The notes under the pieces: generated by a model | Database searches by the model: none | Told to the model about the DNA's origin: nothing | What the model saw: the letters and a program-made list of their open reading frames with translations, nothing else | NCBI GenBank assembly: GCA_000508305.1 | Contig: CP006977.1 | Location: 652,621-716,620 of the forward strand | Reading direction: 5' to 3' | Length of the DNA stretch: 64,000 nucleotides | Source: Sulfolobus acidocaldarius SUSAZ | Lineage (GTDB): Archaea > Thermoproteota > Thermoprotei_A > Sulfolobales > Sulfolobaceae | Shown: positions 63,085 through 64,000 of the stretch, piece by piece | Numbering within the stretch: position 1 is the stretch's first letter | Layout: the number at the start of each line of letters is the position of its first letter | Made by a program: the position numbers and the translations under genes

Positions 63085-64000
63085 TCATGCTGAATGAATT
63101 TCAACTATATCTCCGTCTTCCAAAACGTGATCCGCACCTACTTTCTGACCAGGGAATTTCACCGATTTCCCCCAAACTCTTGCATACCCAAATCCTTCAG
63201 CTAATTCATTATGCAGTTTTCTAGCAACCTCAACAACTGTGGTTCCCCTCTTTACTATTAAGGGTTCCATGGAGGGTTTATCCTTTGGTTCTTTAGTGTA
63301 AACCCTTATTACATCAAGTATTTTGAATATTGCCTCTCTTAATCTATCTGTATCGTTTATTCTTATTACGAGTATCCCCTCTTCTGTGGTAAATTCTTCG
63401 TTGGATACTATTATTGCAGGTTTATATAGGCTAGTGCCGAAAACTTCTCTTTCAATATCATCAAGAGTTACCTCGCCTATTATTTTCACTAAAGCATTTC
63501 TAATACCAAAGCCCTCTAAATACCTTCTTACGTCGTCCTCATTAGTGTTAACTAATTTACCCATATTAACTATTCTTATCCCTAATCTCCCATACCTAGT
63601 TCTATCTATGATTACCTTCCCCTTTGGTTTTCTAAGAAAAATACCGTTGTTTTCTAGGTTGTCTCTTATTGATTTATATTCTTCCTTGTCCTTAACAACT
63701 ATTAATATTCCATCGCTATTTTTTGTCAGTCCTAGAACTCTTCCTATTAGACTTTTTGCCTCAAATATTAGCGGAGGGGTATTTAGCAATTGAATCTGCA
63801 CATCAAGGTACTTCATCATACCCGGTACTGGTAAATCCCGAGGATCTATTTTTACATTTGTGAGTTCTCTCATTAACCTATTTTTAAGCTCGTAGTCTCC
63901 CAATAACACAACCTGTCCAGCTCCCTCTTTTTCAATGAAGAATTGGAGACCCCTTTTTACTGAGGAGCTCTTCCTCCTCTCTAATTCAGCCTCGTCCTTG
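63085..64000 (-). CDS. DRG/Obg-type TGS protein with degenerate GTPase motifs, 5' end outside window
   Basis: Reads to the right edge, so the N-terminus is missing. The visible part ends in a TGS domain (KFPGQKVGADHVLEDGDIVEIH). The core aligns by eye with DRG-type proteins (FFIEKEGAGQVVLLG, PVPGMMKYLDVQIQL), but the motifs differ. G1 is GDYELKNRL with no GK(S/T), the G3 DTPP is NTPP, and the G4 NKxD is replaced by SNEEF. It therefore probably does not hydrolyse GTP, yet remains full length with no frame damage. A GTG at 63909 is internal. Confidence 0.85.
   Translation of the reverse strand, partial: KDEAELERRKSSSVKRGLQFFIEKEGAGQVVLLGDYELKNRLMRELTNVKIDPRDLPVPGMMKYLDVQIQLLNTPPLIFEAKSLIGRVLGLTKNSDGILIVVKDKEEYKSIRDNLENNGIFLRKPKGKVIIDRTRYGRLGIRIVNMGKLVNTNEDDVRRYLEGFGIRNALVKIIGEVTLDDIEREVFGTSLYKPAIIVSNEEFTTEEGILVIRINDTDRLREAIFKILDVIRVYTKEPKDKPSMEPLIVKRGTTVVEVARKLHNELAEGFGYARVWGKSVKFPGQKVGADHVLEDGDIVEIHSA

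Follow-up and report, generated by a model that had tools for sequence, protein, structure and literature searches.

Our analysis has shown that the only DRG protein of the Sulfolobaceae is, on good evidence, a pseudo-GTPase: its GTPase fold is predicted to be kept, its GTPase motifs are gone and its gene is under purifying selection. DRG proteins are conserved GTPases of eukaryotes and archaea, present as a single copy in archaea, and the purpose of their GTPase activity is unsettled (PMC8629797, PMC9256742). A limited search of the open-access literature returned no prior description of a pseudo-GTPase DRG from the Sulfolobaceae. The gene lies at the end of the window, i.e. the whole stretch of 64,000 nucleotides of Sulfolobus acidocaldarius SUSAZ DNA that was analysed. 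An open frame on the minus strand (63085-63999) encodes the 304 C-terminal residues of a protein of 360 amino acids, while the ATG lies 167 bases past the edge, at window position 64167 (G000:C1:716787), and the start of the gene overlaps the end of rnhB. The complete N-terminus includes a helical HTH region, and the architecture of the whole protein is HTH–G–S5D2L–G–TGS. The preliminary description of this DNA had left room for a proper G1 motif in the off-window part of the protein; a P-loop was looked for there (MVTNLPAEAKAKWIKYMDAKTPEEKIRALQEFLSAIPKHKGTENLVYWAKRRLAEL, from the same genome's sequence) and is absent. The features are as follows.

63085..64000, minus strand: pseudo-GTPase DRG gene, the last 304 of its 360 codons and the stop; homologues have the common start MVTNLPAEA
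63694..63969, minus strand: first half of the pseudo-G domain (residues 67-158), from the alignment and AlphaFold model
63880..63900, minus strand: former G1/P-loop, GDYELKN, one residue short of GxxxxGK[ST], from the alignment
63832..63837, minus strand: junction D111-L112, with about six residues of switch I/G2 deleted relative to intact orthologues, from the alignment
63772..63783, minus strand: former G3, NTPP, from the alignment
63427..63693, minus strand: S5D2L-like insert inside the G domain (residues 159-247), from PF16897 and alignment to Rbg1/Rbg2
63322..63426, minus strand: second half of the pseudo-G domain (residues 248-282), which holds the former G4 and has lost most of G5; conservation is lowest here, from alignment and conservation
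63391..63405, minus strand: former G4 (NKxD) position, SNEEF, from the alignment
63088..63321, minus strand: TGS domain (residues 283-360), strongly conserved, from PF02824 and conservation

By sequence, its closest solved relatives are yeast Rbg1 and Rbg2, with homology along nearly the entire protein (E about 1e-50 with the family profile). In Pfam, the TGS domain (PF02824) scored 61 bits against a cut-off of 22.2, the S5D2L insert (PF16897) fell a little short of its cut-off (31.2 against 35.2 bits), and the G domain left a sub-threshold trace only. Membership in the YchF family was rejected, with a score of 29.8 bits against a cut-off of 387 that came from the C-terminal (TGS) part only.

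Relative to intact orthologues, the window's protein has GDYELKN in place of GPPNTGKS, NTPP in place of DTPP and SNEEF at the NKxD position. The preliminary description had read these as replacements of the P-loop, DTPP and NKxD in an otherwise intact DRG frame. Alignment with homologues from the Sulfolobales and other archaea, which it had proposed, bore this out, with the altered motifs kept in 31/31 Sulfolobaceae genomes. For G3, the substitution itself was confirmed, but DTPP is already an altered motif, since canonical DRGs have DLPG. At E<=0.001, a search across the whole order hit 191 of 197 genomes, and the weakest hits resemble TGS-only matches. The alignment set comprised 27 sequences from Sulfolobaceae and 34 spread over ten further families of the order. 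GxxxxGK[ST] was found in 0/27 of the former versus 34/34 of the latter, whose G4 is NKxD in 31 and NKAE, SKKD or TKKD in the remaining three. The Sulfolobaceae proteins have no GK(S/T) at G1, N[PT]P at G3 and no NKxD, and they have lost about six residues of switch I/G2 and most of G5. The preliminary description had missed three of these lesions, namely the switch I/G2 deletion, the loss of most of the G5/SAK region and the shortening of G1; G1 is one residue shorter in nearly all Sulfolobaceae, with L020 of full length but without the motif.

Motif absence was established in 30 loci from the family-wide search and in one further genome from the alignment (L039 in G119). The single NKxD string of L259 sits elsewhere, away from G4. 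The named motif-less loci belong to Sulfolobaceae (Metallosphaera, Aramenus, Sulfolobus sp.). In the contig scan for orthologues, an alignment query gave loci and a single-protein query gave none. A contig labelled 'Euryarchaeota archaeon' (L086, JAFMDM010000034.1) also carries a Sulfolobaceae-type pseudo-DRG, and its label is probably wrong. Chance or a local sequencing error as the cause of motif loss is ruled out by its presence in all 31 Sulfolobaceae genomes. When the family was searched with an intact orthologue, one DRG per genome was recovered in each of the 31, and no second, intact DRG was found; other matches reached at most 49 bits over short stretches. The pseudo-GTPase is thus the sole DRG of the Sulfolobaceae. 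This excludes the suggestion that the protein serves as a scaffold for a true DRG partner, given that neither the window's genome nor the 30 others hold a second DRG.

Selection was estimated as dN/dS by NG86; many dS values were saturated, and close pairs with unsaturated dS were used. In these pairs, whole-gene dN/dS was about 0.01-0.08. dN was lower than dS in all domains, and the C-terminal half of the pseudo-G domain was the least constrained. Within the family, pairwise identity was highest in the HTH region (82%) and TGS (72%); the first G half and S5D2L stood at 57-58% and the G4/G5 part at 32%. The low dN/dS indicates a maintained pseudo-GTPase rather than a pseudogene; a broken frame or relaxed selection was rejected on this basis and because the frame is intact in 31/31 Sulfolobaceae genomes. 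The AlphaFold models reached a pLDDT of 92.9 (L080, a full-length homologue) and 93.1 (the 304 residues encoded in the window). Foldseek with the L080 model placed Rbg1 and the ribosome-bound Rbg1/Rbg2 at the top and YchF below; sequence identity in the fold matches was 22-26%. Against Rbg1, the global TM-score was only about 0.6, which counts against the functional reading given below but may be an effect of domain placement.

A maximum-likelihood tree was built from 88 sequences, with canonical DRGs as the root. The Sulfolobaceae proteins form one clade in it (100/100), which is nested in the order's own clade (99/95) with intact archaeal DRG orthologues around it. The simplest account is that the gene descended vertically and that the motifs were lost on the Sulfolobaceae stem. 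The nesting and the domain architecture contradict the idea that the family is unrelated to DRG GTPases. On these grounds, the protein is a DRG orthologue by descent and architecture and is not classed as a DRG GTPase.

Two types of DRG occur across the phylum, a canonical type with DLPG in family f13 and an NLPAEA type in most other sampled families (names for f13, f15, f18, f26, f29 and f33 are not firm; f13 appears to be Nitrosopumilaceae-like and f18 Thermoproteaceae-like). The G3 of the NLPAEA type generally lacks the DxxG glycine, even where the P-loop is intact, and motif erosion is seen in several lineages besides Sulfolobaceae. The DRG of f15 (L233 in G207, L234 in G200) has lost all G motifs and lies on a very long branch, outside the operon context of the Sulfolobaceae gene; possibly, this was an independent conversion. 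Two sister sequences of f29 have apparently been caught midway through loss: one has GSLGSGKT and TKVD without the switch I segment and the other has neither G1 nor G4 (L209 in G250, L238 in G280). In f18 (L194-L197, L214), the P-loop is intact, the G3 Asp is replaced by Lys and G4/G5 are degraded, which would possibly leave a protein that binds nucleotide with altered specificity or without hydrolysis. Lys at G3 is also found in Vulcanisaeta and its f26 relatives, whose sequences adjoin Vulcanisaeta in the tree. The P-loop Lys is changed to Arg (GRS), with NKxD kept, in f33 (L181, L187) and several Bathyarchaeota (L141, L148-L150, L152-L154). No DRG orthologue was detected in G007 (f8, 99% complete) or G234 (f21, 97% complete), whose relatives have one; the sole match in each was a short TGS stretch of another protein.

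The losses in f15 and f29 are taken as independent because of the tree, the position of both families outside the order and the GSLGSGKT kept by one f29 sister. Trees that join the Sulfolobaceae to f29 or to f15 were not formally rejected by AU tests (p 0.077 and 0.124, respectively), so the number of complete losses that were independent is well inferred rather than proven. The proposal of a crenarchaeal-specific subfamily did not hold: NLPAEA-type DRGs occur through much of the phylum, most of them with their P-loop intact, and it is in Sulfolobaceae that complete loss has become fixed. The preliminary observation was right but understated; the idea of a crenarchaeal-specific subfamily gives way to that of a phylum-wide subfamily prone to losing its GTPase, in which the only DRG was converted throughout the Sulfolobaceae.

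With regard to function, the strong selection on the altered DRG suggests that its job in Sulfolobaceae does not need GTP. Yeast members of the DRG/Rbg family bind ribosomes and consume GTP. On the ribosome, yeast Rbg2 touches the small subunit with its TGS domain and the A-site tRNA with S5D2L, and its G and HTH domains meet the stalk base and sarcin-ricin loop of the large subunit (PMC8040806). Based on these contacts, and since HTH and TGS are the best-kept regions, we consider it fairly probable that the single DRG turned into a scaffold that works without nucleotide and occupies the usual DRG place at the ribosome's factor-binding site, with the absence of nucleotide binding, the ribosome binding and the step of action all inferred. 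A conserved DRG relative with its GTPase motifs lost, as first described, is supported and would be consistent with a scaffold role. An ancestral DRG with HTH, a G domain with inserted S5D2L, and TGS would have lost nucleotide binding and switching on the Sulfolobaceae stem while retaining the fold and the HTH and TGS domains. The protein would most likely still sit on the ribosome near the factor-binding/A site, like Rbg1 and Rbg2, with TGS bound to the small subunit, both HTH and pseudo-G to the large one, and S5D2L lying against the A-site tRNA. There it could act as a constitutive scaffold, independent of nucleotide, that stabilises a translation or assembly intermediate and is released through competition or an altered ribosome state, not GTP hydrolysis.

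Previous research bears on the ribosome scaffold in both directions. The G1 mutant of yeast Rbg1 (GKS to GKN) is inactive in vivo (PMC3510508), which indicates that the GTPase is needed in the yeast lineage and counts against this reading, whereas microtubule functions of DRG1 are reported to be independent of its GTPase (review PMC8629797), which favours GTP-independent DRG activity in principle. The DFRP_C partner domain (PF16543) was not found in the window's genome, nor over the cut-off in 14 control genomes. In yeast, Tma46 is thought to bring Rbg1 to polysomes. With this role in mind, the lack of a DFRP partner domain counts against the ribosome scaffold; however, the test is uninformative among archaea since 14/14 controls had no match. 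A broader proposal, tentative and on balance somewhat doubtful, is that DRG, in much of the Thermoproteota, has a core function that does not depend on nucleotide: it would be a structural clamp at the ribosomal A site/factor site, to which GTP hydrolysis would add a dispensable regulatory layer. Its basis would be repeated GTPase loss as read from the motifs, complete in Sulfolobaceae, f15 and one f29 genome and partial in Thermoproteaceae-like families.

The DRG gene is the last of an operon, aIF2β–DUF424–NMD3–rnhB–DRG, in 6/6 Sulfolobaceae loci that were looked at, one of them the window's own; apart from rnhB and DRG, the genes were named by reading their translated sequences. At one locus (L005:2428-10492; window 61807 to beyond the window end), DRG, rnhB, NMD3, DUF424 and aIF2beta are densely packed, and aIF1A and a RIO kinase follow past a MiaB-like gene and a thiolase; judged from these translations, the neighbourhood is a translation/ribosome-biogenesis cluster. 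The operon suggests that a role on translating ribosomes may have been left and that the protein may have become a scaffold for ribosome assembly or for the operon partners aIF2beta, NMD3 and RNase HII. We regard this as unlikely, since intact DRGs in families f9 and f10 likewise have rnhB in front of them, so that the neighbourhood did not originate with motif loss, and conservation of HTH and TGS favours the keeping of old binding surfaces.

Some pseudo-GTPases retain nucleotide binding. Septins are an example (PMC10731463), and they count in favour of a nucleotide or other phosphate ligand still being bound non-canonically, with a ligand-controlled switch remaining. The pocket retains some fixed residues, including N129 at the G3 Asp position, which is invariant in 26/26 Sulfolobaceae compared and is D or E in the order's intact orthologues. 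Nevertheless, the Lys-Ser/Thr of the P-loop, the switch I segment and the guanine-reading G4 and G5 are gone, no part of the protein is less conserved than the G4/G5 segment, and such a switch seems to us decidedly improbable. It is more improbable still, to the point of being hardly credible, that the gene is decaying towards loss because DRG function is dispensable. Motif erosion in several lineages and the apparent absence of an orthologue from the nearly complete genomes G007 and G234 would fit such decay, but the intact frames, the low dN/dS and the kept operon argue against it. The Sulfolobaceae, a whole archaeal family that includes genetically tractable Sulfolobus, have a sole DRG that lacks the GTPase; this separates binding from switching, and the difference between the two becomes testable.

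Compared with known systems, the protein resembles yeast Rbg1 and Rbg2 (PDB 4a9a, 7rr5, 7nrc) in its HTH-G-S5D2L-G-TGS order, near-full-length homology and top fold match. It differs in that G1-G5 are all lost or altered and no DFRP_C domain was found in its genome. With the NLPAEA-type archaeal DRGs (Desulfurococcales and related families, Bathyarchaeota, Vulcanisaeta), it shares the common start, an rnhB neighbour in two families and, within the order, about 43-57% identity; in contrast, these retain GxxxxGK[ST] (GRS in several Bathyarchaeota) and generally NKxD. The sole other TGS protein of the window's genome is a YchF/YGR210-like GTPase (G000:C1:463518-464720), which has the TGS domain and belongs to the Obg-related superfamily, but it is intact, of another family and similar in the TGS region only. 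The closest parallels in kind are the septin and p190RhoGAP pseudo-GTPases (PMC10731463, PMC5593906), conserved GTPase folds with lost motifs, and in septins the loss arose independently several times (PMC10731463). Those are cytoskeletal and signalling proteins of eukaryotes, whereas in Sulfolobaceae a sole, presumed translation factor has been converted family-wide.
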